Shown one piece after another: positions 556 through 29,828 of a stretch of DNA of 64,000 nucleotides. The stretch lies in contig NZ_JAHBAG010000001.1 of NCBI RefSeq assembly GCF_020510445.1, positions 3,696,501-3,760,500 on the forward strand, given 5' to 3'. The stretch is from Hydrogenophaga taeniospiralis. Lineage in GTDB: Bacteria > Pseudomonadota > Gammaproteobacteria > Burkholderiales > Burkholderiaceae_C. The translations under genes and the position numbers were made by a program. Numbering within the stretch: position 1 is the first letter of the stretch; each line of letters begins with the position of its first letter. The notes beneath the pieces were generated by a model. It was not told the DNA's origin. It made no database searches and saw nothing but the letters and a program-made list of their open reading frames with translations.

Positions 556-622
556 GTCTTGTCTCCTAGCAAGTGAACACGGTTGGAAGTACCAATGGGA
601 CACGGTCCCCACTGTCTGGTCT

Positions 623-652
623 TATTGTATTCACGTATTATTTGATGCAATA
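623..652. promoter_or_regulatory. Operator copy A of the 8-N14-8 inverted repeat
   Basis: Arms TATTGTAT (623-630) and ATGCAATA (645-652) are separated by 14 AT-rich bases. The reverse complement of the right arm is TATTGCAT, so 7 of 8 arm positions are symmetric. Four more sites in the window have the same arms and the same spacing. It lies 68 bases upstream of the minus-strand Bug gene, so it most likely controls that gene. The proposed ligands are the two GntR/FCD regulators (inference). Confidence 0.65.
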
Positions 653-673
653 CTAGTGTTTGCTCCATCAGTA

Positions 674-697
674 AAAACCACACCTAGGGGGGTGTGG
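674..697 (-). terminator. Possible rho-independent terminator or attenuator between divergent genes
   Basis: CCACACC (678-684) pairs with GGTGTGG (691-697) around a six-base loop. On the minus strand the hairpin is followed by TTTTTAC. It sits between the two operator copies and would insulate the minus-strand Bug gene from upstream transcription. The stem is only 7 bp, so this is tentative. Confidence 0.35.
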
Positions 698-763
698 CTC
701 CAGCAATGAAGCGAACCTCAACTAGAGAACTGGGCACCCGCGACAGGTTTGGTATGTGGCACA

Positions 764-793
764 TATTGCATTATGTTGACTTCAAATGCAAAA
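764..793. promoter_or_regulatory. Operator copy B of the 8-N14-8 inverted repeat, at the aconitase gene
   Basis: Arms TATTGCAT (764-771) and ATGCAAAA (786-793) are spaced by 14 bases. The ATG at 786 lies inside the right arm, which argues against it as the start codon and favours the in-frame ATG at 801. A weak promoter (TTGGTA 749-754, 17-base spacer, TATGTT 772-777) would have its -10 box inside the operator, which suits repression. Confidence 0.65.
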
Positions 794-800
794 TTGCACG

Positions 801-3431
801 ATGACCAACACCCCCCTCACAGACATACCCAGCGCCACCATGACGGTGCATGGCGCCTCCTACCGACACGTCAACCTGTCAGCGCTGCTGGGCCCCACAC
901 TGACACGACTGCCCCATGTTCTGCGCGTCTTGCTCGAGAACGTGGTGCGCACCACACAAGGAACTGAACAGCAGGCGCACGTGGCACACCTGCTCCAGTG
1001 GCTGGATCACGCCAGCAGCGAAGCCGAGATCCCGTTCCAGCCGGGCCGGGTGCTGATGCACGACACCACCAGTACCCCCGCACTGGTGGACATCGCGGGG
1101 ATGCGAGATGCGCTGGCCGAAGCCGGCGTGGACCCGGCGGTGCTGAGCCCCACCCTGCCGGTGGATGTTTCGGTCGACCATTCGCTGGCGGTCGAGGTCT
1201 ATGGCCGACCCGACGCGATCACGCTGAACATGGAGCACGAAATCCGCCGCAACCGTGAGCGCTACCGCTTCCTGCGCTGGGCCTCGAAGGCACTAGACGG
1301 CGTACGCATCAACCCGCCCGGCACGGGCATCATGCACACCATCAACCTGGAACAGTTGGCCACCGTCAGCTGCGTCGAACAACGCGACGGCCAGGCCTGG
1401 CTGATCCCCGACGTGATGCTGGGCACCGACAGCCACACCCCGATGGTCAACGGCCTGGGTGTGCTGGGCTGGGGCGTCGGCGGACTGGAAGCGCAGACCG
1501 TCATGTTCGGCATGCCGACCATGTTGCGCATCCCGGACGTGGTGGGCGTGCGATTGGTGGGCCGGTTGGCAGCACCTGCACAGGCCACCGACCTGGCCCT
1601 GACCGTGACCCAGCGCTTGCGTGCGCTGGATGTGACAGGCGAGTTTGTCGAGTTCTTCGGGCCTGGTGTGTCTACCCTCTCGGCCAACGAGCGGGCGGTG
1701 GTGGCCAACATGGCTCCGGAATATGGCGCCACCACCGGCTACTTTCCGGTGGACGAAGCCACCCTGAGCTATCTGGCGGCCACTGGCCGGAGCCCGGCAC
1801 ACATCGAGCTGGTGCGCGCTCACCAGCAAGCGTCTGGACTGTGGTTCGACCCACTCGCCACCCCCGTCTATTCCAAATCCATCGAAATCGACCTGGGCCA
1901 GATTGGTGTGCACATCGCGGGTCCGACCCGGCCGCAGGACCTGCTGTCGCTGCAGGACGCGGGCCGGGCGCTGGACGCGGTCGGTTTTCAGCCCAAGGCC
2001 TTGTCCAAAGACATGCCGCTGCATCCGGTGGGCATTGCCGCCATCTCCAGTTGCACCAACACCAGCGATCCAAGGCTGTTGGTTGCCGCCGGTCTGTTGG
2101 CACGCAAGGCCAGGGCCAAGGGTCTGACGGTGCCGTACTGGGTCAAGACCTCGCTGGCCCCCGGATCGCCCGCGGCGGCCAGCTATCTGCAGCGCGCCGG
2201 CCTGACCGACGACCTCGCGGCACTGGGTTTCAACATCGTGGGTTATGGCTGCAGCACCTGCATTGGCAACCCCGGGCCACTGACCGAACCGATCCGCCTG
2301 GCGCAGGAGCGCGGCGAGGTCAAGGCGCTGGCCATTGTCTCGGGCAACCGCAATTTCCCGGGCCGCGTTCACCCCGACATCGAGCTCAGCTACATCATGT
2401 CGCCGCTGCTGGTGGTGGCGTTCGCCATTGCTGGCGACGCCCGCCGCAACCTGCGCGATGAGCCGCTGCAGACCGGCGCTGACGAAATCCCCGTCCACCT
2501 GGCCGACATCTGGCCCAGCGCCAGCGAGATCGACGAAACCTTGCGTCTGTCGCAAGCCCCAGCCGACTACGCCGCCGACTTTGCCAGGGCCAGCGCCAAC
2601 CCGCTCTGGCACGGCATCGAGGCACCTGACGCGGCGCGCTTTCCCTGGGACGAAGCCTCCACAGCGCTGCGACGCCCTCCGTTTGCGTCGCTCCGGGAAG
2701 GCTCGCAACTGGGCAGCTACCGCGCCTACCCGCTGCTGGTGCTGGGTGACGACATCACCACCGACCACATCTCACCCGCCAGTGCGATACCACCCGACAG
2801 CCTGGTCGCCGATTTTCTGGTCGAGCGCGGCGACGACCGGCGCGACCTCAACGTGTTCGCGTCCAGACGGGGCAACTGGGAAGTGATGCTGCGCGCCGCT
2901 TTCCACAACAAGAACCTGCGCAACCTGCTGGCACCCGGCGCTCCGGTGGCGCACACGCTGCACATTCCCACGGGCGAAACACTGCCCCTGTGGGAGGCGT
3001 CGGCAAGGTACAAGGCCGCAGGGCAATCCGTGGTCATCGTCGCGGGTGAGCGCTACGGCATGGGGTCTTCGCGCGACTGGGCGGCCAAGGGTCAGCGGCT
3101 GCTGGGCGTGCGCGCCGTGTTGGCGGTCGGCTTCGAACGCATCCACCGCTCCAACCTGATCGGCATGGGCATCCTGCCAGTGCGCATGACCCACGGCGTT
3201 TCGCCGACCAGCCTGAACATCCAGCCCGGCGACGAAATCGAGGTGATTGCGGATGCCGCAACCCTGAGCCCACGCTGCGACATCGAAGTGCGCCTGCGCC
3301 GTCGAGACGGCAGCTCGACATCCATTCCGGCCAAGGCCGCCGTTGAAACGCAGCTCGAAGTCGAGCTGCTGCAAAAGGGTGGCGTGATTCCCGCCATCCT
3401 CGAAAAGACCATCGCACAACACCGTCAGTGA
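801..3431 (+). CDS. Aconitase-family hydratase (AcnA type)
   Basis: This 876-residue [4Fe-4S] hydro-lyase has the AcnA/IRP domain order. Cluster cysteines are visible in SSCTNTSDPR and in GYGCSTCIGNPG. The C-terminal swivel domain carries GERYGMGSSRDWAAKG. Length is normal for AcnA. Family members interconvert citrate-like hydroxy acids through an enoic intermediate. Because it lies in an accessory cluster with a lactonase, Bug proteins and a decarboxylating dehydrogenase, it may act on a related hydroxy-tricarboxylate rather than serve as the TCA enzyme (inference). The start is placed at 801 because the in-frame ATG at 786 falls inside an operator; no good ribosome binding site precedes either. 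The stop overlaps a possible GTG start of the next gene. Confidence 0.9.
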   Translation: MTNTPLTDIPSATMTVHGASYRHVNLSALLGPTLTRLPHVLRVLLENVVRTTQGTEQQAHVAHLLQWLDHASSEAEIPFQPGRVLMHDTTSTPALVDIAGMRDALAEAGVDPAVLSPTLPVDVSVDHSLAVEVYGRPDAITLNMEHEIRRNRERYRFLRWASKALDGVRINPPGTGIMHTINLEQLATVSCVEQRDGQAWLIPDVMLGTDSHTPMVNGLGVLGWGVGGLEAQTVMFGMPTMLRIPDVVGVRLVGRLAAPAQATDLALTVTQRLRALDVTGEFVEFFGPGVSTLSANERAVVANMAPEYGATTGYFPVDEATLSYLAATGRSPAHIELVRAHQQASGLWFDPLATPVYSKSIEIDLGQIGVHIAGPTRPQDLLSLQDAGRALDAVGFQPKALSKDMPLHPVGIAAISSCTNTSDPRLLVAAGLLARKARAKGLTVPYWVKTSLAPGSPAAASYLQRAGLTDDLAALGFNIVGYGCSTCIGNPGPLTEPIRLAQERGEVKALAIVSGNRNFPGRVHPDIELSYIMSPLLVVAFAIAGDARRNLRDEPLQTGADEIPVHLADIWPSASEIDETLRLSQAPADYAADFARASANPLWHGIEAPDAARFPWDEASTALRRPPFASLREGSQLGSYRAYPLLVLGDDITTDHISPASAIPPDSLVADFLVERGDDRRDLNVFASRRGNWEVMLRAAFHNKNLRNLLAPGAPVAHTLHIPTGETLPLWEASARYKAAGQSVVIVAGERYGMGSSRDWAAKGQRLLGVRAVLAVGFERIHRSNLIGMGILPVRMTHGVSPTSLNIQPGDEIEVIADAATLSPRCDIEVRLRRRDGSSTSIPAKAAVETQLEVELLQKGGVIPAILEKTIAQHRQ

Positions 3432-3439
3432 GAACCCAT

Positions 3440-4183
3440 ATGAGCACCGTATCCGATGCATTGAAGAAAACACTTGCGCCGACTGGCCGCCTGCGCGCAT
3501 CCATCAACCTGGGCAACCCGGTGCTGGTACAGCGCAACGCCACCACAGGCGAACCCGAAGGTGTGTCTGTCTCCCTGGCGCAAGCGTTCGCGCAGCACCT
3601 GGGCCTGCCCCTGGATCTGGTGGTTTTCGACACGGCTGGCAAATCGGTCGATGCGGTCACCCGGGAAGAGGCCGACTTCGGCTTCTTCGCCATCGATCCT
3701 GTCCGCGGCCAGGGCATCCACTTCACCGCACCCTACGTCCTCATCGAGGGGGCATACCTGGTGCGCGAAGGCTCGACCTTCACCTGCAACGACGATGTGG
3801 ACCAGGAAGGCGTGCTCGTCACGGTGGGCAAGGGCAGCGCGTACGACCTGTTCCTGACCCGCGAACTGCGCCAGGCTCACATCGTGCGCGCCCCCTCCTC
3901 ACCTACGGTGGTGGACGTATTCATGGAACAGGCGCTGGATGTCGCTGCCGGCGTGCGCCAGCAACTTGAAGCCGACCTGCAGCGTTTTGAAGGTCTGCGT
4001 ATCCTGCCGGGCCGCTTCATGGTGATCGAGCAGGCCATGGGGCTGCCCCGCGGGCGTGGAGACGAAGCCGCCCGCTGCCTGTTTGATTTCCTGGAAAGCG
4101 CCAAGACTTCAGGTCTGGTGGCCAGGGAACTGGCCCGCTTTGGTATCCAGGGTGCGTCAGTGGCTCCCGCTGCGAAGGCCTGA
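3440..4183 (+). CDS. Periplasmic-binding-protein-like protein (SBP_bac_3 fold) without a signal peptide
   Basis: A 247-residue protein resembling the amino-acid-type solute-binding family. It begins with a helix and then LRASINLGNPVLVQRNATTG, followed by LAQAFAQHLGLPLDLVVF and DFGFFAIDPVRGQGIHFT, a pattern typical of SBP_bac_3. No signal peptide is visible from either start, so it may stay in the cytoplasm as a ligand sensor, or the annotated fold may have been reused. A GTG at 3428 overlaps the aconitase stop (GTGA) and would add four residues; the ATG at 3440 is preferred. It is four bases from the lactonase gene, and the three genes probably form one operon. Function is uncertain. Confidence 0.75.
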   Translation: MSTVSDALKKTLAPTGRLRASINLGNPVLVQRNATTGEPEGVSVSLAQAFAQHLGLPLDLVVFDTAGKSVDAVTREEADFGFFAIDPVRGQGIHFTAPYVLIEGAYLVREGSTFTCNDDVDQEGVLVTVGKGSAYDLFLTRELRQAHIVRAPSSPTVVDVFMEQALDVAAGVRQQLEADLQRFEGLRILPGRFMVIEQAMGLPRGRGDEAARCLFDFLESAKTSGLVARELARFGIQGASVAPAAKA

Positions 4184-4186
4184 ACC

Positions 4187-5239
4187 ATGTGGGCATACAT
4201 CGGCTCCAGAACCACCCGCGAGCGCAACGCTCGCGGCGAAGGCATCAGCATCTTCCAAGTCAACGAATCCACAGGCGATCTGACCCCCACAGGCGTCGTA
4301 GGCGGCCTGCTGAACCCATCCTTCCAGGCCTACAGCGACCGCCATCAGGTGCTGTACTCCATCCATGGCGACAGCCAGGAGGTGAGCGCTTTTCGGGTTC
4401 ACACCGAAACGGGGGCACTCACCTTTCTCAATCAGGTGTCTTGCGAAGGGCGCAACCCGGTGCATCTGGCGCTGGATCCCAGCCATCAGCGGCTGGTGGT
4501 TTCCAACCACCTGACCAGTGCCGTGGCCGTGTTGAGCATCCTGGACGATGGCCGGTTGGGCGGGGTGACACAACTCGTACCGCTGGAAGGTGACCCCGGC
4601 CCGCACCGCAAGGAACAGCCCTTCTCCAAGCCTCATTTCAATCCGTTCGACCGTTCAGGGCGCTTTGTGATCGTGCCCGACAAAGGGCTGGACAGGATCT
4701 TCGTGTTCCGCTTCGAGAACGGCCGACTCACTCCCGCGCGCACGCCGTCGGTCACCAGCCGGGAAACCGCAGGTCCGCGCCATGTCGCCCTCCATCCGAA
4801 CGGCCCATGGTTGTACTGCGTCAACGAACTGGATTCCACCGTGACCGCCTACCGCTTCAACGGCGACAGCGGTGAGTTGACGCCGTTCCAGGTGTTGTCA
4901 ACCCTCAGTGAGCGGTTCACCGACAACAGCCGCGCCTCTGAAATCGAGGTCCACCCCGGCGGACGCTGGCTGTATGCCTCCAACCGCGGCGAAGACAGTG
5001 TGGCGGTCTTTGAAATCGATCAAGCCTGCGGCGAATTGCGCCTGGCGCAGACCGTCCCGACACTGGGCCGCACACCTCGATTCTTTGCCTTGCACCCGTC
5101 CGGCCGCTGGCTGTATGTTCTCAACGAGGATTCGGACACCATCGTGCGCTTCCGGGTCGATGAACACTCAGGCTTGCTGGCAAGCGTGGGCGATCCACTT
5201 CATTGCGCCAGCCCGGTTTGCATGAGCTTTGTGGGCTGA
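4187..5239 (+). CDS. Lactonase family protein (6-phosphogluconolactonase-like seven-bladed beta-propeller)
   Basis: The 350 residues show the repeating blade motif of the Pgl-type lactonase family (PF10282): repeated units such as VHLALDPSHQRLVVSNH, RHVALHPNGPWLYCVNE, IEVHPGGRWLYASNRG and FALHPSGRWLYVLNEDSD. No signal peptide is seen, so it is cytoplasmic. Family members hydrolyse sugar-acid or other lactones. Next to an aconitase-like gene and C4-acid genes, a role in opening the lactone of a hydroxy-polycarboxylic or aldonic acid is plausible (inference). It is the third gene of the 801-5239 operon. It is not close to the zwf-linked DevB/Pgl enzyme. Confidence 0.85.
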   Translation: MWAYIGSRTTRERNARGEGISIFQVNESTGDLTPTGVVGGLLNPSFQAYSDRHQVLYSIHGDSQEVSAFRVHTETGALTFLNQVSCEGRNPVHLALDPSHQRLVVSNHLTSAVAVLSILDDGRLGGVTQLVPLEGDPGPHRKEQPFSKPHFNPFDRSGRFVIVPDKGLDRIFVFRFENGRLTPARTPSVTSRETAGPRHVALHPNGPWLYCVNELDSTVTAYRFNGDSGELTPFQVLSTLSERFTDNSRASEIEVHPGGRWLYASNRGEDSVAVFEIDQACGELRLAQTVPTLGRTPRFFALHPSGRWLYVLNEDSDTIVRFRVDEHSGLLASVGDPLHCASPVCMSFVG

Positions 5240-5292
5240 TTCCTCTGGTGGCGCGCGACTGCCCGCTCCCGGGCAGGATCACGCAGACGGGT

Positions 5293-5670
5293 CTAACTCG
5301 GAATGTTCTGCGCCAGAAAGTCCAGCAGCATGTTGGCGGTGGACAGGTTGGTCGCGCAGGGCACGTTGTGCACATCACAAGCCCTCACAAGGGCGTTGAT
5401 GTCGGGCTCATGGGGTTGTGGCGTCATAGGGTCGCGCAGAAACACCAGCGCCTGGACACGCCCTGCCACCAGCATGGCGCCGATCTGTTGGTCCCCGCCC
5501 AGCGGACCGCTGAGCACACACTCCACCGGCAGTGCCAGCTCCCGGGACAGGCGCCCCCCCGTGGTTCCGGTGGCCACCAGGACGCATTGGCGCAACAACG
5601 GCAGGTGCCTGCCGGCCAAAACCAGCATGTCGTCCTTCTTTCGGTCGTGTGCGATCAGGGCAAGTCTCAT
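5293..5670 (-). CDS. mgsA: Methylglyoxal synthase
   Basis: The 125 residues fit the MgsA family, which converts dihydroxyacetone phosphate to methylglyoxal and phosphate. It opens [14 protein letters not shown] and contains [10 protein letters not shown] (phosphate binding) and [12 protein letters not shown] with the catalytic aspartate. [18 protein letters not shown] is also typical. It is slightly shorter than the E. coli enzyme (152 residues) because the C-terminal tail is missing. It is divergent from a GntR regulator, with an operator copy in the gap, and lies 2.3 kb from kinase and aldolase genes whose expected product is dihydroxyacetone phosphate. It may therefore act as an overflow valve for that pathway (inference). 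Confidence 0.93.
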
Positions 5671-5695
5671 CTGTACAAAGTATCTGCTTCACTGA

Positions 5696-5725
5696 TATTG
5701 TATGAAAATAATCTTTGATACACAA
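5696..5725. promoter_or_regulatory. Operator copy C of the 8-N14-8 inverted repeat, mgsA-gntR gap
   Basis: Arms TATTGTAT (5696-5703) and ATACACAA (5718-5725) have the same 14-base spacing as the other copies. The left arm is identical to copy A and the right arm is the weakest of the five. It lies between the divergent mgsA and gntR genes, consistent with autoregulation. Confidence 0.55.
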
Positions 5726-5834
5726 AAGCCGATTCCCTTCCGTTCCAAGGTCGTTGCCGCTTTGCCCACCAACCATCGCTACGGCGCGTATGGCCATAAT
5801 TGTTCGTCAGCCACCACCAGCACACGCCAACACC

Positions 5835-6806
5835 ATGAACACCCCCAGAGCCGCAAAAAAAGCCAGCTCGATGCCGCCCCCTCCGAGCGGCATCGCCAAC
5901 TCGGTGGCGGCAGGCATTCTGGAATACATCCGCAAGCTGGATCTTCCCGCCGGTGAGCGGCTGAGGGAGCAGACGCTGGCCAACGAACTGGGCGTGTCCC
6001 GTTCGCCCATCCGAAAGGCCCTGCAGTACATGGAGTCGGCCGGGATCGTTGAATCCAGTCCGAACCGGGGATTTTTCCTCAAGCAAAGGGCAGCTGATCT
6101 GATGCGCCTGGACATGCCAGCCGACGAAGAGTCTGACGAAGCCCTGTACTTGCGCGTGGCCGAAGAGCGCCTGAGCGGCGCACTGCCAGAAGAGATTACC
6201 GAGGTTGATCTCATGGAGCGTTACGACCTGTCCCGATTGCAAGTGCAGCGCGTGCTCAATCGCATGGGGCGCGAAGGGCTGGCTGAGCGAAAGCCCGGGC
6301 GAGGCTGGGTGTTCCGCCCATTTCTCAGCACCGACACCGCCTACCGGGAGGGCTACCGATTCCGCATGATCATCGAGCCCGCCGCACTGCTGGAGCCCAG
6401 TTTCCGGATCGACAAGGTCGCATTCGACAGGATCCGGCGGGACCAGCAAGCGATGCTCGATGGCGGCATCGAAAAATGGCCCCGGAGCGAGCTGTTTCGC
6501 GCCGGCGCCCAGTTCCACGAAACCCTGGTCGCTGCGTCCAACAACAGCTTCCTGCTGGAGTCCATCCGCAACGTCAACCAGTTGCGTCGCCTGGTCGAGT
6601 ACCGGGTGAACGTGGATCGCAGCCGCCTGTACCGGCAATGCGGAGAACACCTCATGCTGCTGGACCTGATCGAAGGAGGCGACCGGGTGGAAGCCTCGTA
6701 CAAGTTGCGCCAGCACCTGGACGTTGCGCGCAGCATCAAGCTGCACGACGCGGATGAAGCCACGGATGGCAAAACCAAGTCCTCTCCCGTGGAAGTCAAC
6801 GTGTAA
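5835..6806 (+). CDS. GntR/FCD-family transcriptional regulator with a second winged-helix-like segment
   Basis: A 323-residue regulator. The first winged helix spans about residues 15-85 (LREQTLANELGVSRSPIRKA, then ESSPNRGFFLK). A second segment at about 115-160 (EITEVDLMERYDLSRLQVQ, then GLAERKPGRGWVF) again looks like helix-turn-helix plus wing. The C-terminal helical FCD domain follows (YRFRMIIEPAALLEPSF, FHETLVAASNNSFLLE), which usually binds a small carboxylate effector. The start at 5835 gives MNTPRAAKK; the longer upstream reading is promoter DNA. It is paralogous to the protein at 16308-17258. Operator copies C and D flank it. It probably represses the acid-catabolic genes. Confidence 0.88.
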   Translation: MNTPRAAKKASSMPPPPSGIANSVAAGILEYIRKLDLPAGERLREQTLANELGVSRSPIRKALQYMESAGIVESSPNRGFFLKQRAADLMRLDMPADEESDEALYLRVAEERLSGALPEEITEVDLMERYDLSRLQVQRVLNRMGREGLAERKPGRGWVFRPFLSTDTAYREGYRFRMIIEPAALLEPSFRIDKVAFDRIRRDQQAMLDGGIEKWPRSELFRAGAQFHETLVAASNNSFLLESIRNVNQLRRLVEYRVNVDRSRLYRQCGEHLMLLDLIEGGDRVEASYKLRQHLDVARSIKLHDADEATDGKTKSSPVEVNV

Positions 6807-6823
6807 CCACGCATCTCTACGCA

Positions 6824-6853
6824 TTTGTACTAAGAATTGACAAAATACAACTT
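6824..6853. promoter_or_regulatory. Operator copy D of the 8-N14-8 inverted repeat
   Basis: Arms ATTTGTAC (6824-6831) and ATACAACT (6846-6853) are spaced by 14 bases. The -35 box of a near-consensus promoter lies in the spacer, so a bound regulator would block RNA polymerase. This is the best evidence that the repeat is a repressor site. Confidence 0.65.
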
Positions 6854-6865
6854 CACACTATACTC
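6838..6865 (+). promoter_or_regulatory. Sigma-70 promoter of the dehydrogenase-otnK-otnC operon
   Basis: TTGACA (6838-6843), a 16-base spacer and TATACT (6860-6865). Transcription would begin near 6872, about 40 bases ahead of the ATG at 6913. The start codon is preceded by ATGGAGACATAG, which contains GGAG. Confidence 0.75.
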
Positions 6866-6912
6866 CGGGATCAACTGGTGGCGCGGTGCCACCATTTCTC
6901 ATGGAGACATAG

Positions 6913-7986
6913 ATGAAGATTCTTGTGCTGCCCGGTGATGGCATTGGTCCTGAAATCGTTGCTGCTTCCCTCAAGGTGCTGACGGCCGCGAGCCAGAAGT
7001 TCGCTCTCGGTCTGAGCTTTGACCACGACGACGTGGGCTTCACCAGCCTGGAAAAAAACGGCACGACACTGCGCGACGAAACCCTGGCCAAGGCCCGCAC
7101 CTACGACGGCATCATCCTGGGCACGCAATCGCACGCCGACTACCCGGCGCCGGAAAAAGGTGGCCGCAATGTTTCGGCAGGTTTCCGCATCGGCCTGGAC
7201 CTGTACGCCAACGTGCGCCCCGCCCGCACCCGCCCCTTCCTGGAGTCGAACATGCGTCCGGGCAAGACCATGGATCTGGTCATCATGCGTGAGGCCACCG
7301 AGGGCTTCTACCCCGACCGCAACATGACCCGCGGCTGGGCCGAGCTGATGCCCAGCCCGGACATGGCCCTGTCCTTCCGCAAGATCACCCGCCACTGCAG
7401 CGAGCGCATCGCGCGCCGCGCCTTTGAACTGGCGATGAAGCGCAACAAGAAGGTCACCGCTATCCACAAGGCCAACAGCTTCCACATGACCGACGGTCTG
7501 TTCATGGAATGCGTGCGCGACGTGGCCAAGGAATTCCCCGAAGTCACCCTCAACGACCTGCTGGTGGATGCCTCCACCGCCCACCTAGTGCGCAACCCGG
7601 AGCGCTTTGACGTGCTGGTGGCGACCAACTTCTACGGCGACATCATTTCCGACCTGGCCAGCGAGCTCTCGGGCAGTCTGGGACTGGCTGGCTCGATGAT
7701 GGCCAGCGACACCCACTGCTGCGCCCAGGCGCAGCACGGCTCGGCACCCGACATCCAGGGACAGGACAAGGCCAACCCGGTGTCGATGATCCTGTCCTGC
7801 GCGATGCTGCTGCAGTGGCTGGGCGAGAAGCGTGGCGTGCCCGCGCTGGAAGCCGCCGCCAAGGCGATGGACGTGGCCGTGGACAAGGTGCTGGAAGACC
7901 CGGCCTCGCGTACGCCCGACCTCGGCGGTTCGACCGGCTGCCAGGCTTTTGCCGACAAGGTGGCCCAGGCCCTGCTGAACGCCTGA
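6913..7986 (+). CDS. Isocitrate/isopropylmalate dehydrogenase family protein
   Basis: The 357 residues form one NAD(P)-dependent beta-decarboxylating dehydrogenase domain. Visible family motifs are LPGDGIGPEIV at the start, LDLYANVRPAR and MREATEGFY (carboxylate-binding arginines), AIHKANSF (catalytic lysine), NFYGDIISDLASEL (metal-binding aspartates) and HGSAPDIQGQDKANP. The family includes isopropylmalate, isocitrate, tartrate and D-malate dehydrogenases, and sequence alone does not settle the substrate. It is followed after 16 bases by an OtnK-type kinase and then an OtnC-type aldolase. It therefore probably performs the oxidation that supplies the kinase substrate, a job done by LtnD in the known threonate pathway. 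A strong promoter and operator copy D precede it. Confidence 0.88.
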   Translation: MKILVLPGDGIGPEIVAASLKVLTAASQKFALGLSFDHDDVGFTSLEKNGTTLRDETLAKARTYDGIILGTQSHADYPAPEKGGRNVSAGFRIGLDLYANVRPARTRPFLESNMRPGKTMDLVIMREATEGFYPDRNMTRGWAELMPSPDMALSFRKITRHCSERIARRAFELAMKRNKKVTAIHKANSFHMTDGLFMECVRDVAKEFPEVTLNDLLVDASTAHLVRNPERFDVLVATNFYGDIISDLASELSGSLGLAGSMMASDTHCCAQAQHGSAPDIQGQDKANPVSMILSCAMLLQWLGEKRGVPALEAAAKAMDVAVDKVLEDPASRTPDLGGSTGCQAFADKVAQALLNA

Positions 7987-8002
7987 GGCAACGAGGTCCC
8001 TC

Positions 8003-9265
8003 ATGTTCCTCGGATGCATCGCAGACGACTTCACCGGGGCGACCGACCTGGCCAACAACCTGGTCCGGTCGGGCATGCGGGTGGTGCAGACCATCGGCAT
8101 CCCGACCGAACCACCGCCCGCCGATGCGGACGCGGTGGTGATCGCCCTCAAGACCCGGACCATCGCGCCTGACGCGGCGGTCGCGGAATCGCTCCAGGCC
8201 GGACGCTGGCTGCGTACCAACGGGGCGCGCCAGATCTACTTCAAGGTGTGCTCGACCTTCGATTCCACCGACGAGGGCAACATCGGACCGGTGACCGAGG
8301 CGCTGATGGACGAACTGGGTGCGAACTTCGTGCCCGTCTGCCCGGCTTTCCCCGAGAACCAGCGCACCATCTTCAATGGCTACCTGTTCGTGGGCAACGG
8401 TCTGCTGAGCGAGAGCAGCATGCGCAACCACCCGCTGACGCCAATGCACGACCCGAATCTGGTGCGAGTCATGCAGCGTCAATGCAAGCGGCAGGTCGGT
8501 CTCATCGACCACCGCACGGTCCATGCTGGCTCGGGCGCGGTCAAAGAGCGTATCGACCTGCTCAGGCAATCAGGCACCGAGCTGGCCATCGTGGACGCCA
8601 CGTCCGACGAGGACCTGCTCATCATGGGCCGTGCTTTCGCTGGCGTGCAGCTGCTGGTGGCGGGCTCTGGTGTGGCGCTGGGCCTACCGCAGAACTTCGG
8701 CATTGCACCCAGTTCGCAGGCGTCCCGGCTGCCCACGGCCCGCGGGCACAAAGCGATCGTGTCGGGCAGCTGCTCGGTGGCGAGCAACGAGCAAGTGGCG
8801 ACTTTCAAAGCCAGGGGCTACGCCTCATTCGCCATTCACCCGCTGCGCGCGGCCAAGGGCGAAGACCTCATAGGTGCGTGCCTCGACTGGGCCAAGTCCC
8901 GACTCGGGGACGAACCCATTTTGATCTACGCGACCGCTGAACCCCAGGCGGTTAAAGAAACGCAGGCCATTCTGGGGGTGCAGGCCGCAGGAGAACTCAC
9001 GGAGCACATCCTCTCCTCCATCGCCGCAGGCTTGGTCGCGCAAGGCGTGGGCCAACTGGTGGTTGCCGGTGGCGAAACATCGGGTGCCTGCGTCAAGGCC
9101 CTGGGCATTGCCAGCATGCGCATCGGCCCGCAGATCGACCCAGGTGTACCGTGGTGCCATGCCCCTGAGAACACGGCTGCACCCCAAGGACTGCACATCG
9201 CACTGAAGTCGGGCAACTTTGGCACGCCGGACTTCTTCACCAAGGCGTTCGGGGTGCTGGCATGA
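8003..9265 (+). CDS. otnK: Four-carbon acid sugar kinase, 3-oxo-tetronate kinase type (OtnK)
   Basis: The 420 residues match the two-domain DUF1537 kinase family, closest in pattern to OtnK/YgbK: GCIADDFTGATDLANNLV at the N-terminus, IYFKVCSTFDSTDEGNIGP, ENQRTIFNGYLFVGNGLL, a second-domain start AIVSGSCSVASNEQ, and VAGGETSGACVKALGI and LKSGNFGTPDFF near the end (nucleotide site). OtnK phosphorylates 3-oxo-tetronate at C4. It sits between the dehydrogenase and the OtnC-like aldolase, the usual kinase-aldolase pairing. The exact C4 acid is not known from sequence. Confidence 0.88.
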   Translation: MFLGCIADDFTGATDLANNLVRSGMRVVQTIGIPTEPPPADADAVVIALKTRTIAPDAAVAESLQAGRWLRTNGARQIYFKVCSTFDSTDEGNIGPVTEALMDELGANFVPVCPAFPENQRTIFNGYLFVGNGLLSESSMRNHPLTPMHDPNLVRVMQRQCKRQVGLIDHRTVHAGSGAVKERIDLLRQSGTELAIVDATSDEDLLIMGRAFAGVQLLVAGSGVALGLPQNFGIAPSSQASRLPTARGHKAIVSGSCSVASNEQVATFKARGYASFAIHPLRAAKGEDLIGACLDWAKSRLGDEPILIYATAEPQAVKETQAILGVQAAGELTEHILSSIAAGLVAQGVGQLVVAGGETSGACVKALGIASMRIGPQIDPGVPWCHAPENTAAPQGLHIALKSGNFGTPDFFTKAFGVLA

Positions 9266-9287
9266 GCGCTGGACAGGAGATGCCGCT

Positions 9288-9944
9288 GTGACCGAAGCCG
9301 AACTTCGCACCGAGATCTGCCGGGTCGGCAAGAGTCTGTTTGACCGCGGTTATGTGCATGCCACGGCGGGCAATATCAGTGCCCGCCTGGCGGACGGCTT
9401 TCTCATCACGCCCACCGACGCCTGCCTTGGATTTCTTGAGCCTGAGGCGCTGGCCAAGGTGGCGCTCGATGGGACACAGATCAGTGGCCAGCGGGCCAGC
9501 AAGACGCTGGTGCTCCACCGAAGCATTTATGCAGCAGAGCCCGAGGCGATGTCCGTCATCCACACGCATTCGACCCACCTGGTGGGCACCAGCCTGACCA
9601 GTGCCTGGACCCAGGACGAGTTGCTCCCCCCCATCACGCCGTACTTTGTGATGAAGGTTGGTCATGTGCCACTGATCCCTTACCACCGACCTGGTGACCC
9701 CAGGGTTGGTCAACTGGTGGCACAGGCAGTTGCCAAGCATGGAGCAGCAGGGCGAAAGATTCGTGCCGTGATGCTGGACCGGCTCGGTCCAAATGTCTGG
9801 CACAGCTCGCCCGCAGCCGCCATGGCCACGCTGGAAGAACTGGAAGAAACCGCCAAGCTCTGGATGCTGGCCAGTCCCAAGCCAGTCCCACTGAGCGAAG
9901 AGGCGATCGCCGAACTCCGAGAACATTTCGGCGCCAGCTGGTAA
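9288..9944 (+). CDS. otnC: Class II aldolase, 3-oxo-tetronate 4-phosphate decarboxylase type (OtnC)
   Basis: A 218-residue class II aldolase/adducin fold. VHATAGNISARLADGFLITP is the family's N-terminal signature, and VIHTHSTHLVGTSL supplies zinc-binding histidines. The OtnC branch decarboxylates 3-oxo-tetronate 4-phosphate to dihydroxyacetone phosphate. The start is placed at GTG 9288 because GGACAGGAGA (9271-9280) lies just upstream; the longer reading begins inside otnK. It is 22 bases from otnK and is the last enzyme of the operon before a Bug protein gene. Confidence 0.85.
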   Translation: MTEAELRTEICRVGKSLFDRGYVHATAGNISARLADGFLITPTDACLGFLEPEALAKVALDGTQISGQRASKTLVLHRSIYAAEPEAMSVIHTHSTHLVGTSLTSAWTQDELLPPITPYFVMKVGHVPLIPYHRPGDPRVGQLVAQAVAKHGAAGRKIRAVMLDRLGPNVWHSSPAAAMATLEELEETAKLWMLASPKPVPLSEEAIAELREHFGASW

Positions 9945-10074
9945 AGCCGCGCCGCAGCAGACGGTTGCCCCATCGGGAACAGGTCCAGTCGGCCTGTTTC
10001 ACCGATACCTTCAGCGCAGACCCCAAAGAGGGCCGCGCCAACCCCCCGACGGATTCCCAGAAGAGGAGACAAGC

Positions 10075-11055: not shown

Positions 11056-11326
11056 CCCAGCCAGGGTGGTCCGTGCAATTTCGCGGGCCAAACGAACCGC
11101 TCCCACGCCCGCTAAGAAAACGCACTTTATGTTTCTAATATTTTCTTGGAACAATTTTCTTGGTGTTTTCCATGAGTAAACAAGACAAGTATGTGTTTTA
11201 TCATTGCTTGAGACGATTCGTACAGATGGCTTTGCGCATACTCAACGTATCCCGAAGGCTCTGCCCGACTGTCCTGACCGGTCCATACCGGTGACCCTAT
11301 CTATCCACCGTTCAGAGGTACATCAA

Positions 11327-12325: not shown

Positions 12326-12359
12326 GGCGGTCCGAACCTCTGCATATCTGTGTTTGACG

Positions 12360-12387
12360 AGCCCCAGCGCTGGACAGCGCTGGGGCT
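12360..12387 (+). other. Intercistronic stem-loop between tctC and tctB
   Basis: AGCCCCAGCGC (12360-12370) pairs perfectly with GCGCTGGGGCT (12377-12387) around a six-base loop. No long T run follows, so it is probably a partial terminator or a 3'-end stabiliser. Either would raise the binding protein relative to the membrane subunits. Confidence 0.6.
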
Positions 12388-12436
12388 GTCATGTGTTTCT
12401 GGCGCCGATGGCGCATGAAGTTTGAGGATCCAGTCC

Positions 12437-12901
12437 ATGTTTGATCGAGTATTCAACCTGATTCTGGTGGTCCTGGGAGTCGCGCTGTATTGGCATTCCG
12501 ACACCATGACCACCGAATTGACCAGCGGCAACATTGGCCCGGAGGTTCTGCCCCGGGTGCTGGCCCTCGCGCTGGTCTTCACCGCCGGGCTGAACCTGGT
12601 CACGGTCATGCGAAAGCAGCCTGCCGGCCGCAAAAGCACTGACGACGAAGACAGTGGAGCCAGCAGCGCCTACACGAAGTTTCTGATTCTCGTGGGTCTC
12701 TTGGTGGCCTACACCCTGCTGCTGGAGCCGCTGGGTTACGTGATTTCCACTTTCCTGTTCCTGCTGGCGGCCATCCAGACGATGGAACGCGGCCACCTGC
12801 TCAAGTCTGCGGTCATTGCGGCCGCGTTTTCAGGCGGCGTCTACCTGCTGTACGTCAAGGTCGCCCTGGGCTCCCTGCCCCCCTTGCCGTTTCTTGAATA
12901 A
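12437..12901 (+). CDS. tctB: Tripartite tricarboxylate transporter small membrane subunit TctB
   Basis: The 154-residue protein has four predicted membrane helices with a hydrophilic loop in the middle (GRKSTDDEDSGASS). The N-terminus FNLILVVLGVALYWHSDTM and the ELTSGNIGPEVLPRVLALAL loop fit TctB. The start is ATG 12437 with GAGG nine bases upstream; an upstream TTG in the same frame has no such site. It stands 15 bases ahead of tctA. Confidence 0.85.
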   Translation: MFDRVFNLILVVLGVALYWHSDTMTTELTSGNIGPEVLPRVLALALVFTAGLNLVTVMRKQPAGRKSTDDEDSGASSAYTKFLILVGLLVAYTLLLEPLGYVISTFLFLLAAIQTMERGHLLKSAVIAAAFSGGVYLLYVKVALGSLPPLPFLE

Positions 12902-12916
12902 CCCATAAGGCTCGTC

Positions 12917-14440
12917 GTGGAAGCTCTTCAATACCTGTCGCAGGGCCTGGGGGTTGCGCTGCAACCCATCAACCTGCTGTTCGCATTCATCGGTTGCCTG
13001 CTGGGCACCTTGGTCGGCGTTCTGCCGGGCATCGGCCCCATCAGCGGCGTGGCGCTGCTCATTCCGGTCACCGCCTCCATCACCAGCGGCATGCCCGCTG
13101 CCGAAGCAGCCACCAGTTCCATCATCCTGCTCGCCGGTGTGTACTACGGCGCCATGTACGGTGGTTCGACCACCGCGATCCTGATCAACACACCCGGCGA
13201 AAACTCTTCGGTGTGCACGACCCTGGACGGCTATCAGATGGCCAAGAACGGCCGCGCAGGCGTTGCTTTGGCCATCTGCGCGATCGCTTCTTTCGTGGCC
13301 GGTCTGATCGCCTGTGTCGGGCTGATCTTCCTGGCCCTTCCCCTGGCGGAGTTGTCGCTGAAGTTCGGACCTGCCGCCCAGTTCTCGCTGATGATCCTGG
13401 GCCTCTGCGCACTGAGCAGTCTGGCGGCCAAGTCGCAGCTCAAGGCCTTTGTCATGACACAGTGCGGACTGATCCTGTCCACAGTGGGTGTGGACCCGAT
13501 CTCGGGTGTTGCCCGCATGACCTTCGGCTACACCGAGCTGTACAGCGGCATCGAATTCCTGACGCTTGCGGTCGGCATGTTCGCCCTGGGTGAAGTCTTC
13601 AAGACCATCATCACCCGTGACTACGCCTCCGGCGAACCCATCAAGGTGGGCAGCCTCCTGCCCAGTGCACAGGACCTGAAAGACAGCACGCCCTCCATCC
13701 TGCGCGGCTCGCTGCTGGGCTTTTTCCAGGGCCTGATTCCTGGCAGTGGCGCCACGTTGTGTTCGTTCATGGCCTACACGGTGGAAAAGAAGCTGAGCAA
13801 GAACGGCAAGAACTTTGGCAAAGGTGCCATTGAAGGCGTGGCCGCCCCCGAGGCCGCCAACAACGCTGCGGCCGGCGGCGCCATGATTCCCTTGCTGACC
13901 CTCGGCATTCCCGGCACCGGCACCACGGCTGTGCTGATGGGCGCGCTGATCATGTTCAACATCACCCCCGGGCCGCTGCTGTTCCAGGAGCACCCGCAAG
14001 TCGCCTGGGGCCTGATCGCCAGCATGCTGGTCGGCAACGTGATGCTGCTGGTGCTCAACCTGCCCCTGGTCAAGGTGTTTGCCAAGGTCATCGAGACGCC
14101 GCCCACCTATCTGATCCCGGGCATCCTGGCCATCTCGGTCTTTGGTGTGTACGCGGTGCAGGTCAGCATCTTCAATTTGTTGCTGATGACCGCCAGCGGT
14201 GTCGCAGCCTACTTCCTTGCCAAGAACGACTACCCGATCGCGCCGCTGGTGCTGGCGCTGATCCTCGGCCCCCTGATCGAGAACAACCTGCGTCGGGGCA
14301 TGAACCTGTACAACGGCGACTGGTTCCAATTCCTCTCGGATCCGGCGTCGATCGTGTTCCTCACAATCGCCGTGCTCTGGGTTGGCATTCCGCAGGTGAT
14401 GAAGCTGCGCGGCAAGACCGTCCTGGTGGAAGACGCATGA
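12917..14440 (+). CDS. tctA: Tripartite tricarboxylate transporter large membrane subunit TctA
   Basis: The 507 residues carry about twelve membrane helices and the two family signature loops: GVLPGIGPISGVALLIP near residue 37 and FFQGLIPGSGATLCSFMAY near 275, followed by GVAAPEAANNAAAGGAMIP. It starts at GTG 12917, and ATAAGG lies just upstream. The stop overlaps the next start as ATGA at 14437, so translation is coupled to the racemase-like gene. It drives cation-coupled uptake of an organic acid delivered by TctC. Confidence 0.95.
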   Translation: MEALQYLSQGLGVALQPINLLFAFIGCLLGTLVGVLPGIGPISGVALLIPVTASITSGMPAAEAATSSIILLAGVYYGAMYGGSTTAILINTPGENSSVCTTLDGYQMAKNGRAGVALAICAIASFVAGLIACVGLIFLALPLAELSLKFGPAAQFSLMILGLCALSSLAAKSQLKAFVMTQCGLILSTVGVDPISGVARMTFGYTELYSGIEFLTLAVGMFALGEVFKTIITRDYASGEPIKVGSLLPSAQDLKDSTPSILRGSLLGFFQGLIPGSGATLCSFMAYTVEKKLSKNGKNFGKGAIEGVAAPEAANNAAAGGAMIPLLTLGIPGTGTTAVLMGALIMFNITPGPLLFQEHPQVAWGLIASMLVGNVMLLVLNLPLVKVFAKVIETPPTYLIPGILAISVFGVYAVQVSIFNLLLMTASGVAAYFLAKNDYPIAPLVLALILGPLIENNLRRGMNLYNGDWFQFLSDPASIVFLTIAVLWVGIPQVMKLRGKTVLVEDA

Positions 14441-15105
14441 TCGGTCTGGACGCAGCCCCCCGCGTGGTGCTCGTTCACGCGGTCCCGGTGGCCATGGCAC
14501 CGGTGGAAGCGGCGTTCAAGCGCCTGTGGCCGCAGGCCCGTCGCAGCAATCTGCTGGACGACGGCCTGCCGGCCGACCTGGAGCGCGCCGGACAGCTGAC
14601 GCCCGAGCTGCATGAACGCATCGCCCGCCTAGTCGACCACGCCGTGGGCATCGGCGCCCAGGGCGTGCTGTTCACCTGCTCGGCCTTTGGTGATGCCATT
14701 GCGGCCAAGGCGGCGTGCTCACCCATTCCGGTGCTCAAGCCAGACCAGGCCATGTTTGACCTGGCCCTCGAAGCGGGTCGCCGCATCGGCATGCTCGCCA
14801 CCTTTGCACCGGCCGTGCCCAACATGGAGAGGGACTTCCGAGCGGCGGCCAAACGCCGTGGCATCGACGTGGACATCGAGTCGGTGTGCGTGCCCGAGGC
14901 CATGGACGCCGCGCGCGCGGGCGATACCGCGCGGCACAACCGGCTGCTGGTCGAGGCCGCTTCACAGCTGGCCCATTGCGATGCGGTGATGCTGGCGCAG
15001 TTCTCCACATCCGTAGCACTCGATGCCGTGCAGTCGGTGCTGGCCTGCCCGGTGCTCAGTTCGCCCGATGCGGCGGTTGCGCTGCTCAAAAAGCAGCTCG
15101 GCTGA
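14437..15105 (+). CDS. Aspartate/glutamate racemase family protein
   Basis: A 222-residue member of the Asp/Glu/hydantoin racemase superfamily, which also includes maleate isomerase and arylmalonate decarboxylase. The first cysteine lies in GVLFTCSAFGD. The place where racemases have the second cysteine reads MLAQFSTSVA, so the two-cysteine racemase mechanism is unlikely. A one-cysteine isomerase or decarboxylase chemistry is more plausible (inference). The ATG overlaps the tctA stop, which ties the enzyme to the substrate carried by TctABC. Confidence 0.8.
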   Translation: MIGLDAAPRVVLVHAVPVAMAPVEAAFKRLWPQARRSNLLDDGLPADLERAGQLTPELHERIARLVDHAVGIGAQGVLFTCSAFGDAIAAKAACSPIPVLKPDQAMFDLALEAGRRIGMLATFAPAVPNMERDFRAAAKRRGIDVDIESVCVPEAMDAARAGDTARHNRLLVEAASQLAHCDAVMLAQFSTSVALDAVQSVLACPVLSSPDAAVALLKKQLG

Positions 15106-15139
15106 TCCGATACACATCAGACCAACAGGACGGACATCG

Positions 15140-15736
15140 ATGCACGCAGGGGGGTCAGTGTCGGAACACCAACCAAAGTCACGGGCACAAATGTTCCTGG
15201 CCTTCAGCATCTTGTCCATGCAGGGCTTTGGTGGCGTCATGGCCATCGCCCGGCGCGAGCTGGTCGAGAAGCGGGCCTGGTTGACGCCGGAGCGCTTCCT
15301 GGCCGACTGGGCGGTGGCGCACGTGCTGCCTGGCCCCAATGTGGTCAACCTGTCGGTGATGGTAGGCGACCGGTTCTTTGGCTGGACCGGTGCCGCCGTG
15401 GCGGTGGCAGGCCTGTTCACTTTTCCTCTGCTTCTGGTCCTGCTGCTGGCCGTGGGCTTTGAGTCCTACGGCTCCATTGCCGCTGTCCAGGGTGCCCTCA
15501 AAGGCATCGCCGCCGTGGTCACTGCGTTGATCGCCAGCACAGCGGCCAAGATGCTGCCCTCCATGCGTGCGCATCCAGGCGGGCGGCTTTTCTGCCTGTT
15601 CTGCGGCATGGTCACGCTGGCACTGGTGCTGGTGCTGCGATGGCCCCTGCCCTGGATCCTGGGCTCCGTGGGTCTGACCGCCTGGGCCTGGACCTATTAC
15701 TGGCTTGGGGCCCACCCGAAGCCAGGCGCACGATGA
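15140..15736 (+). CDS. Chromate transporter (CHR) family protein, N-terminal-type half
   Basis: The 198 residues have the CHR domain opening MFLAFSILSMQGFGGVMAIA, then RRELVEKRAWLTPERF and HVLPGPNVVNLSVMVGDRF, followed by hydrophobic helices. This is a short-chain, single-domain CHR protein whose partner gene overlaps it by ATGA. Pairs of this kind form one heterodimeric transporter. No chrB or other chromate-resistance gene is nearby, and the pair follows tctBA and the racemase-like gene, so an organic anion may be the real substrate (inference). The start at ATG 15140 is chosen because the upstream reading lies in the preceding gene. Confidence 0.85.
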   Translation: MHAGGSVSEHQPKSRAQMFLAFSILSMQGFGGVMAIARRELVEKRAWLTPERFLADWAVAHVLPGPNVVNLSVMVGDRFFGWTGAAVAVAGLFTFPLLLVLLLAVGFESYGSIAAVQGALKGIAAVVTALIASTAAKMLPSMRAHPGGRLFCLFCGMVTLALVLVLRWPLPWILGSVGLTAWAWTYYWLGAHPKPGAR

Positions 15737-16311
15737 CCAACGTCCAAGCCTTCGCCTGGAGCGACCTGCCCAGCCTGTGCCTGAACTTCGCCACGCTGTC
15801 CCTCATCTCCGTCGGCGGTGGCATGGCCGTGGTGCCTGACATGCACCGCTTCCTGGTGCTTGAAAGCCGCTGGCTCACAGCGTCGCAGTTCAGCGACTCC
15901 GTGGCCCTGGCGCAGGTTGCGCCGGGCCCCAACATCCTGTTCGTGGCCCTGATGGGCTGGTACGCGTCGTCGCTTTCGCTGGGTGTCTGGGCCGCGCCGC
16001 TGGTGGCAACGCTGTGCCTGCTGTGCATGGTGGGCCCCAGCTCGGTGCTGGCCTTGTACGCCTCGCGCTGGATGGAGCGGCACCATGAGGTGCGCAGCGT
16101 CAAAGCCTTCCACAACGGCCTTGCGCCGGTGGTGGTGGCCCTGCTGTTTTCGTCGGCGGTGTACGTCTACCCTTCCAAGAGCATGACCTTGCACGATCTG
16201 GCGCTGGCGGTGTTGTGCCTGACGGCGTTCGTGCTGCTGCTCAAAACCCGCGTGAACCTGATGCTGCTGCTGGCCGCCGGTGCCACCGCTGGCGCGCTGG
16301 GCCTGGTTTAA
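15733..16311 (+). CDS. Chromate transporter (CHR) family protein, C-terminal-type half
   Basis: The 192 residues contain the second CHR signature: TLSLISVGGGMAVVPDMH, then RFLVLESRWLTASQF and ALAQVAPGPNILFVALMGW, and several membrane helices. The ATG at 15733 overlaps the stop of the first half. Its stop overlaps the stop of the convergent GntR gene by four bases (16308-16311), so no terminator fits between them. Confidence 0.85.
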   Translation: MTNVQAFAWSDLPSLCLNFATLSLISVGGGMAVVPDMHRFLVLESRWLTASQFSDSVALAQVAPGPNILFVALMGWYASSLSLGVWAAPLVATLCLLCMVGPSSVLALYASRWMERHHEVRSVKAFHNGLAPVVVALLFSSAVYVYPSKSMTLHDLALAVLCLTAFVLLLKTRVNLMLLLAAGATAGALGLV

Positions 16312-17258
16312 GTGCCCCGTAGCGGCGCGCTCCGCCGCGGGATCGACCTTTCGGCCTGCCGTGGCTGGGGCGTCACCTCCGGCCCGAGCAAGACGCGGAT
16401 TTTTTCCATGTTTCTGATGGTGGCGTTCAGGTGCTCGCTCATCGCGGCCGATGCGTCCGATAGCCGCTCTGCTTCAATCAGATCCAGGATATCCAGGTGC
16501 TGCTGGCAGTGCGCCGCGTACCGCACACGGTCCTTCATCGACCGGTACGACAACAGGCGCCGCAGGCGGTGGACGCGACGCACAGCGTCGATGAAGAACG
16601 CGTTTCCTGAAGCCTGCACCAAGGCCTCGTGAAACAGCACGCCCCGGTCGTGCAACTCCTCGGGCGTGGCGGTTTCGATGCCACCGTTCAGCAGTCGCCG
16701 CTCGGTGGCGCGCAAGCGCGCGATCACCTGGGGATCCAGGTGGTAGCCAGGCTCCAGCAAGGCGGCAGGCTCCAGCGCCAAGCGCAGCCGGTAGGACTTC
16801 AGCAGACTGCCGGGGGTGGTCAGGATGGCACTGAAGTCCCAGCCGTAGCCAGGGCGTTTCTGCATCCACCCTTCATCGGAAATCCGGTGCAGCAGGGTGT
16901 GCAGCTGACCGCCTGAGAGGCTGTACCTCGACCTCAGTTCAGCTTCGGTCACCTCGTCGGGCAGGGCCCCATTGAGGCGGTCTTCCGCCAGCTGAAAGTA
17001 CGCCGCGCTCAAGCAGTCGGTCTGCGAGACCCCGAACTCCGTCGCCAGCAACGTGGCGACCCGATCCAACGACGCTGCGAGGAAGAAGCCGCGGTTCGGT
17101 TCACGCACCACCACGCCCTTTTCTTGCAGCCTGATCAGCGCCTGGCTGACCGGGGTGCGCGACACCTTCAGGCGCCCGGCCAACGCGGCCGCCGTCAGGT
17201 GAGCACCCTCGGCCAGCCCTTGATCAAGAACGGTTTCCAGTATCTGGCGCGCGAGCAT
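16308..17258 (-). CDS. GntR/FCD-family transcriptional regulator, paralogue of the protein at 5835
   Basis: The 316 residues have the same layout as the regulator at 5835-6806. The first winged helix spans about 5-70 (LTAAALAGRLKVSRTPVSQA, VREPNRGFFLA). A second one lies at about 100-145 (EVTEAELRSRYSLSGGQLH, MQKRPGYGWDF). An FCD domain follows (YRLRLALEPAALLEPGY, FHEALVQASGNAFFIDAVR). The ATG at 17258 is preferred over 17264 because AAGGA then sits five bases ahead. It is divergent from a Bug gene with operator copy E in the gap. It probably shares the operator with its paralogue, and the two could compete or form heterodimers (inference). Confidence 0.88.
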   Translation of the reverse strand: MLARQILETVLDQGLAEGAHLTAAALAGRLKVSRTPVSQALIRLQEKGVVVREPNRGFFLAASLDRVATLLATEFGVSQTDCLSAAYFQLAEDRLNGALPDEVTEAELRSRYSLSGGQLHTLLHRISDEGWMQKRPGYGWDFSAILTTPGSLLKSYRLRLALEPAALLEPGYHLDPQVIARLRATERRLLNGGIETATPEELHDRGVLFHEALVQASGNAFFIDAVRRVHRLRRLLSYRSMKDRVRYAAHCQQHLDILDLIEAERLSDASAAMSEHLNATIRNMEKIRVLLGPEVTPQPRQAERSIPRRSAPLRGT

Positions 17259-17355
17259 TTTCATCCTTCATTCGAGCATCAACCCATATAGTCGTCACCC
17301 AAAAACATTGCATCAAACAACTCCTTGCAACAACAGGCCACTCACCAGAAGTATC

Positions 17356-17373
17356 GAATGAGAGCTCGCATTC
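17356..17373. promoter_or_regulatory. 18-bp near-palindrome in the gntR-bug gap
   Basis: GAATGAGAGCTCGCATTC is symmetric at all but one pair (outer arms GAATG/CATTC, core GAGCTC). It lies 98 bases upstream of the GntR gene at 17258 and does not resemble the shared operator. It may bind another regulator; support is limited to symmetry. Confidence 0.25.
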
Positions 17374-17435
17374 AGAAATTCATGCAATAAATGCAGGCCA
17401 TGGACGGATGAGACCCCGGGTTTTCCACATAGTTA

Positions 17436-17465
17436 TTTTGTATTTAATAAAACTAAAATGCAACT
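17436..17465. promoter_or_regulatory. Operator copy E of the 8-N14-8 inverted repeat
   Basis: Arms TTTTGTAT (17436-17443) and ATGCAACT (17458-17465) are spaced by 14 very AT-rich bases. It ends 24 bases before the start of the Bug gene at 17490, so it probably covers that promoter. Confidence 0.65.
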
Positions 17466-29692: not shown

Positions 29693-29812
29693 GTTTGTCT
29701 CCTTGCTGCTCGTCAAGAGCGAAAAACCTGTGATTCAGGTTGATATGGTGGGTGATCGGCTACTTCTAAAAAGCTATCCCGGTGGCTGTTTCAAGCAGAT
29801 TTTTGCATTGCA

Positions 29813-29828
29813 TTGCAACCGGGTGCAA
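29813..29828. promoter_or_regulatory. LacI-type operator upstream of the ABC transporter operon
   Basis: TTGCAACCGGGTGCAA is a 16-bp palindrome, symmetric at 14 of 16 positions and centred on CCGG. It shares 15 of 16 bases with the site at 26804-26819. It lies 121 bases ahead of the binding-protein gene and downstream of the lacI stop. Confidence 0.75.

Follow-up and report, generated by a model that had tools for sequence, protein, structure and literature searches.

Long-Spaced Inverted Repeats as Putative Operators of Two Paralogous Tandem-Winged-Helix GntR Regulators at an Organic-Acid Locus of Hydrogenophaga taeniospiralis

Among bacterial regulators, FCD-type GntR proteins form a very common class, whose regulons are predicted by a short-operator rule. 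The stretch of Hydrogenophaga taeniospiralis DNA analysed here (64,000 nucleotides, hereafter the window) carries an inverted repeat with unusually distant half-sites at an organic-acid locus that also encodes two FCD-type GntR proteins (Table 1). Judging from sequence comparisons, we consider the repeats to be putative operators of these two paralogous regulators, each with two winged helices (wHTH1 and wHTH2) in tandem, so that one four-headed dimer would occupy each site (probability about 0.78).

Table 1. Genes, regulators and putative operators of the locus (arms, base at arm position 4 on the two sides).
Feature	Position	Core	Strand	Arms	Basis or context
Bug1 receptor (TctC family)	1..612		-		PF03401; runs off window
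Putative operator 1	623..652	625-650	.	T/C	Upstream of Bug1 (-); exact core
Putative operator 2	764..793	766-791	.	C/C	Just upstream of aconitase start, taken as 801; exact core
AcnA-type aconitase	801..3431		+		PF00330/PF00694; NCBIfam AcnA above cut-off
Methylglyoxal synthase (mgsA)	5293..5670		-		NCBIfam above cut-off; 125 aa
Putative operator 3	5696..5725	5698-5723	.	T/T	Between mgsA (-) and gntR-A (+); one mismatch to core
GntR A	5835..6806		+		wHTH1 residues 19-82, wHTH2 101-160, FCD; Pfam and model; start codon inferred
Putative operator 4	6823..6852	6825-6850	.	T/T	Upstream of dehydrogenase; exact core
Isocitrate/isopropylmalate-type dehydrogenase	6913..7986		+		PF00180
GntR B	16308..17264		-		39% identical to its paralogue A; Pfam FCD and a single GntR stretch
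Putative operator 5	17436..17465	17438-17463	.	T/C	Between gntR-B (-) and Bug3 (+); exact core
Bug3 receptor (TctC family)	17490..18476		+		PF03401

Besides these genes, the locus encodes an SBP_bac_3 protein, a lactonase-family beta-propeller protein, a 3-oxo-tetronate kinase, another Bug receptor, TctC, TctB, TctA, a racemase-like protein and two chromate-transporter domains, together with a class II aldolase near 3-oxo-tetronate-4-phosphate decarboxylase (242 bits against a cut-off of 250). No NCBIfam model scored above its cut-off for the dehydrogenase. The dehydrogenase, the kinase and the decarboxylase-like aldolase form one operon (6913-9944), and this trio recurs in four other genomes (G168, G246, G377, and G295, the nearest relative). 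The methylglyoxal synthase appears in G295 as two adjoining tblastn pieces (84 and 113 aa; L052:6968-7583), possibly a tandem copy.

The original prediction, NWTTGYAY-N14-ATRCAMNN, matches all five sites on the + strand of the window and nothing else there, and on the - strand it matches just 623 and 764 again. Four of its five site starts were correct, the one given as 6824 being 6823, and the gene context of the sites is as it described, with the addition that the 5698 site also lies 28 bp from the start of the divergent mgsA, which it had missed. When the core TTGYAY-Nd-RTRCAA was searched in the window with d from 0 to 30, exact matches were found five times at d=14 (including one at 29803), once at d=9, once at d=13, and at no other spacing. 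The spacers of the five sites are AT-rich (10-13 of 14). A -35 box had been noted within one site, and TTGACA indeed lies in the spacer of the 6825 site; TTGACA-16-TATACT at 6837-6864 is the sole promoter-like match in 400-7100 (0.8 expected by chance), and its -35 box is kept in G295.

Exact cores are rare in this genome. Only five were found in 5.28 Mb, all in the window (625, 766, 6825, 17438, and 29803), and four of them fall in the 17-kb locus; one-mismatch cores, including 5698, occur in 31 places. The chance expectation is 0.003 exact cores in 17.5 kb against four seen, for a stretch that was picked after the fact. In the 28 genomes without a detected homologue of the regulators that supply the background, 132.8 Mb contain 24 exact cores (0.18 per Mb), none with more than 8 AT among the 14 spacer bases. 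By comparison, 28 picked genomes with a homologue contain 60 exact cores, of which 31 (in 26 genomes) lie near the gntR gene, and the other 29 amount to the background rate over 130.6 Mb. The many random genome hits proposed as grounds for abandoning the pattern were thus not found genome-wide. The match at 29803, which consists of overlapping TTGCA repeats (29803-29828) around a GC-richer spacer, was rejected as a sixth operator: because its spacer is 6/14 AT and it is absent among the exact matches of G295, we regard it as a chance match. Two near-identical AT-rich exact cores outside the fetched gntR surroundings (G528:C1:300554-300579 and G645:C30:91506-91531) perhaps mark a further regulon member. 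In G131, whose B-type locus ends at a contig end, an AT-rich exact core on a separate contig (C147:3120-3145) is perhaps the missing operator.

Both regulators are present in G295 (A, 92% identical; B, 96%), and all five sites occur there at positions equivalent to those of the window. In the intergenic alignments, 88 of the 90 positions in the 9-bp arms are kept (18/18 at 625, 766, and 17438; 17/18 at 5698 and 6825), against 29 of 40 in the central 8 bp and 61-79% in the remainder of each region; the conserved unit is therefore 9 bp - N8 - 9 bp, rather than one with the 8-bp arms first described. A match at 11129, before tctC, was rejected as a site, being only 9/12 to the core and poorly conserved in G295 (arms 15/18, centre 3/8), so that the regulon edge placed at tctC stands. 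L053:5065 of G295 (11/12), considered as a further shared site, has no counterpart in the window by blastn.

The N-terminal PF00392 match scored 76.9 bits in A and 52.5 bits in B (cut-off 27), and the C-terminal FCD match (PF07729) 55.6 and 62.2 bits (cut-off 24.3). By Pfam, A has two GntR stretches and B has one, and B aligns with A through wHTH2. In a structure model of A (input, A and B sequences only; mean pLDDT 67, pTM 0.45), a first winged helix (H19-35, H45-52, H56-68, E72-75, E79-82) is followed by a second (H101-113, H123-130, H134-146, E150-153, E157-160) and then by the FCD helices; A thus departs in the model from the one winged helix per chain of the FCD subfamily. When profiles from 53 homologues are compared, wHTH1 and wHTH2 align with each other across 56 columns (E 8.9e-14); the profile of wHTH1 also matches 37 of the 53 wHTH2 segments at E <= 1e-3. 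For each sequence match in the PDB, the best-matched stretch takes in just a single winged helix, sometimes together with part of FCD. A fold search of the PDB with the model put single-headed FCD regulators first, and its best 50 rows hold transcription-factor chains of 198-278 residues, none evidently tandem. The best fold match was the VanR-type Atu1419, whose sequence match spans wHTH2 and the start of FCD. FCD matches above cut-off number 16 in the genome, and a search of it with A gave two proteins, A and B (8 of 34 candidates scored; 33 of 36 in the genus search). Both GntR proteins of the locus agree with the suggestion that the repeat could suit proteins with two winged helices per chain, and elsewhere the N14 spacing follows their protein group.

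Homologues were found in 11/250 and 23/399 genomes of the family, 5/67 of the genus, 20/399 of the order, and 20/398 of the phylum (own genome counted), in searches whose queries and cut-offs differ and whose samples overlap; a scan of named genomes gave one distant match. The surroundings of homologues were taken from the genomes of the family, genus, and order searches, minus G807. Without the window, these loci amount to 902,528 bases, in which exact cores number 31 at N14 against 0-3 at any one of the other spacings (0-40). An exact N14 core lies within 5 kb of the gene in 29 of 54 homologues, against at most 2 of 54 for any other spacing; these 54 are not independent (e.g., seven belong to a single genus, and G295 contributes close copies of A and B). 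The exact core is absent within 5 kb in the other 25, of which six have a variant form and 19 neither; 11/12 AT-rich matches were seen in at least three of those with neither (G150b, G364, and G555a). An inverted-repeat scan of intergenic stretches at eight places in loci without an exact site returned GC-rich repeats only. No exact core was found in 18 loci outside the order (phylum search, flanks of only 1.5 kb), where five 11/12 AT-rich near matches at N14, against at most two at other spacings, are only a hint. Across several families of the order, the sites are found with members of this GntR group, amid differing neighbour genes. A third tandem-wHTH paralogue was also observed (L033:6915-7853, L117:906-1844, L055:3577-4464), in G246 and G377 near an A-type gene, and an exact core was not found within 5 kb of it.

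The locus was originally described as a single regulon. Instead, the arm bases and the gene neighbourhoods in other genomes indicate two paralogous regulators with overlapping operators, and the one regulon is probably two overlapping ones. Among proteins with sites within 5 kb, those with Arg60 have at least one TTGT arm in 10/10 (five T/T, five T/C), while those with Asn60 or Glu60 have TTGC/TTGC in 17/17; the two Ser60 proteins (B here and B of G295) have mixed sites. Fourteen of 311 alignment columns split the T and C groups fully, and only E45 and R60 are one residue throughout the T group and absent from the other group. Arm base 4 thus tracks, statistically, E45 and R60 of the first winged helix. 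By distance from the conserved recognition-helix arginine, these residues correspond to Glu34 and Arg49 of Atu1419, both of which are listed as DNA contacts in the available text of its report, where Arg49 contacts the phosphate backbone, not a base (PMC7797058). On the tree, Glu must have been gained independently at least twice, so that the covariation does not reflect one event, though the independent events are still few. A reading of arm position 4 by wHTH2 was rejected, the Arg49-like residue there being Gln or Arg in the T and C groups alike.

Gene neighbourhoods elsewhere give a similar picture: the dehydrogenase-kinase-aldolase unit stands alongside regulators of the A type, and for the aconitase-SBP-lactonase-Bug unit the partner is mostly of the B type. 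In G168, where an A-type regulator was found and a B-type was not, the site before the Bug-lactonase-aconitase operon is T/T, against C/C for the sites beside aconitase and Bug in nine B-type (Asn) genomes, which suggests that the arm base goes with the regulator, not with the target. In our window, A would mainly serve the T/T sites (its own gene with mgsA, and the dehydrogenase operon) and B mainly the C-containing sites (aconitase, Bug1, and Bug3), a division that we infer for this genome. At 5.0-5.2 kb from gntR-A, 625 and 766 fall outside the 5-kb cut; 766 (C/C) is assigned here to B, and if it were bound by A, the T rule would fail there. It is unlikely that A or B alone controls all five sites with neutral T/C differences. 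Such a view could appeal to the single architecture common to the five sites, to a Y at position 4 that either regulator could tolerate, and to the mixed arms at half of the R-type sites, but T or C follows the wHTH1 residue elsewhere (10/10 against 0/17), and the A and B types are also found separately, each with its own target units.

The best hint to the role of the second winged helix comes from six homologues with Gln60, none of which has an exact core. Their loci carry WTG-N7-TRATYA-N7-CAW, mostly with a central TGATCA, in the same 26-bp frame as the A and B sites. This pattern has 12 matches in 112.7 kb of the Gln60 loci at that offset, against 0-1 at other offsets (0-14), and two in 854 kb of the other homologue loci. 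Two of the 12 lie within recognised genes (L056:8644 and 13830) and one is GC-rich (L054:1684), with the remaining nine spanning all six loci. The frame was first spotted by eye in part of the Gln loci, and the offset test therefore partly reused the same loci. A variant with a conserved centre suggests that the second winged helix reads inner bases. A pairing of a wHTH2 arginine with the central G was dropped after a look by eye, as G506, G688, and G691 do not fit.

From the computed sites, their rarity, fixed spacing, and conservation, the link to the protein group, and the covariation with wHTH1, we infer binding itself, the place of wHTH2, the stoichiometry, repression, and the ligand as follows. 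Each chain would place two GntR-type winged helices before its FCD ligand domain, giving a dimer with four reading heads, and two DNA-binding heads per chain would explain the unusually wide gap between half-sites. The wHTH1 of each chain would sit on the outer TTGYAY part of an arm, and wHTH2 probably points inward, to the three bases of the 9-bp arm nearest the centre or, in the Gln clade, to the central TGATCA. A distance of 21 bp, or about two turns, puts the invariant G and C on one face of the DNA, and one FCD dimer may set it by holding both ends with the two wHTH2 lying between. Protein bound over the core promoter would most likely repress until an organic acid binds FCD; because a -35 box lies in the 6825 spacer and is kept in G295, occlusion is the most likely mode of repression. 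More tentatively, and at a little under even odds, the doubled winged helix would have made a four-head dimer for one 26-bp operator, in which wHTH1 fixes the outer arms (E45, R60) and wHTH2 is a separately evolving inner reader able to gain its own half-site (the central TGATCA), so that paralogues diverge within a common frame.

Two dimers side by side, one per arm, with the second winged helix off the DNA, would be an alternative arrangement, which we think doubtful. A single arm does carry the TTGT box that serves as half-site in FCD operators, PMC4494728 describes additional half-sites in the family, 7-12 nt from the centre, and the FadR-Arg45-like arginine is lost from wHTH2 in 21 of 54 homologues. 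Nevertheless, the arms are single half-sites and not palindromes, the spacing is held at 14 across widely diverged homologues, and the central bases are conserved in the Gln clade. That an unrelated regulator of these genes owns the sites is highly improbable: the wHTH1 link is indeed statistical, but the sites go with the GntR group across several families and the base in the arm varies with the residues by which this group contacts DNA. That the repeats arose by chance in AT-rich intergenic DNA has a negligible probability, for although 29803 is evidence that chance matches arise and the original pattern was chosen after the sites were seen, the genome count, the spacing control, and the conservation contradict it.

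The four-headed dimer that we favour would differ from known systems in its geometry. The spacing was rightly predicted to exceed the FCD norm: GT and AC are 18 nt apart here, against a typical 3 nt, or 2 nt in some groups, given for FadR-subfamily operators in the portion of PMC4494728 that treats them. Those operators, described in the same source as AT-rich inverted repeats with TTGT/ACAA boxes, share this form with the sites predicted here. The extra half-sites of the GntR family lie at about the distance of our outer arms, but go with a central palindrome to which single-headed proteins bind (PMC4494728), while the centre of the A and B sites is not conserved. Atu1419 (PDB 6z74, 6za3) has an FCD ligand domain and a GntR-type winged helix in common with A and B, but is described in the available text as having one winged helix per chain and forming a tetramer that loops DNA, with the 10-mer ATGTATACAT as its site (PMC7797058). 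Escherichia coli NanR is also a GntR-type regulator with a non-standard operator, as proposed here, but it binds as three dimers on (GGTATA)3 direct repeats, as stated in the accessible part of its report (PMC8012715). No report of a tandem-wHTH FCD regulator was found in searches of a library of open-access papers.

If the proposed arrangement is true, this doubled-head, long-spaced group would escape the short-operator rule. The motif and the residue link make the regulons of the tandem-wHTH group predictable, and the group would be a clean test case for how doubling of a DNA-binding domain alters operator geometry and for the divergence of paralogous regulators.
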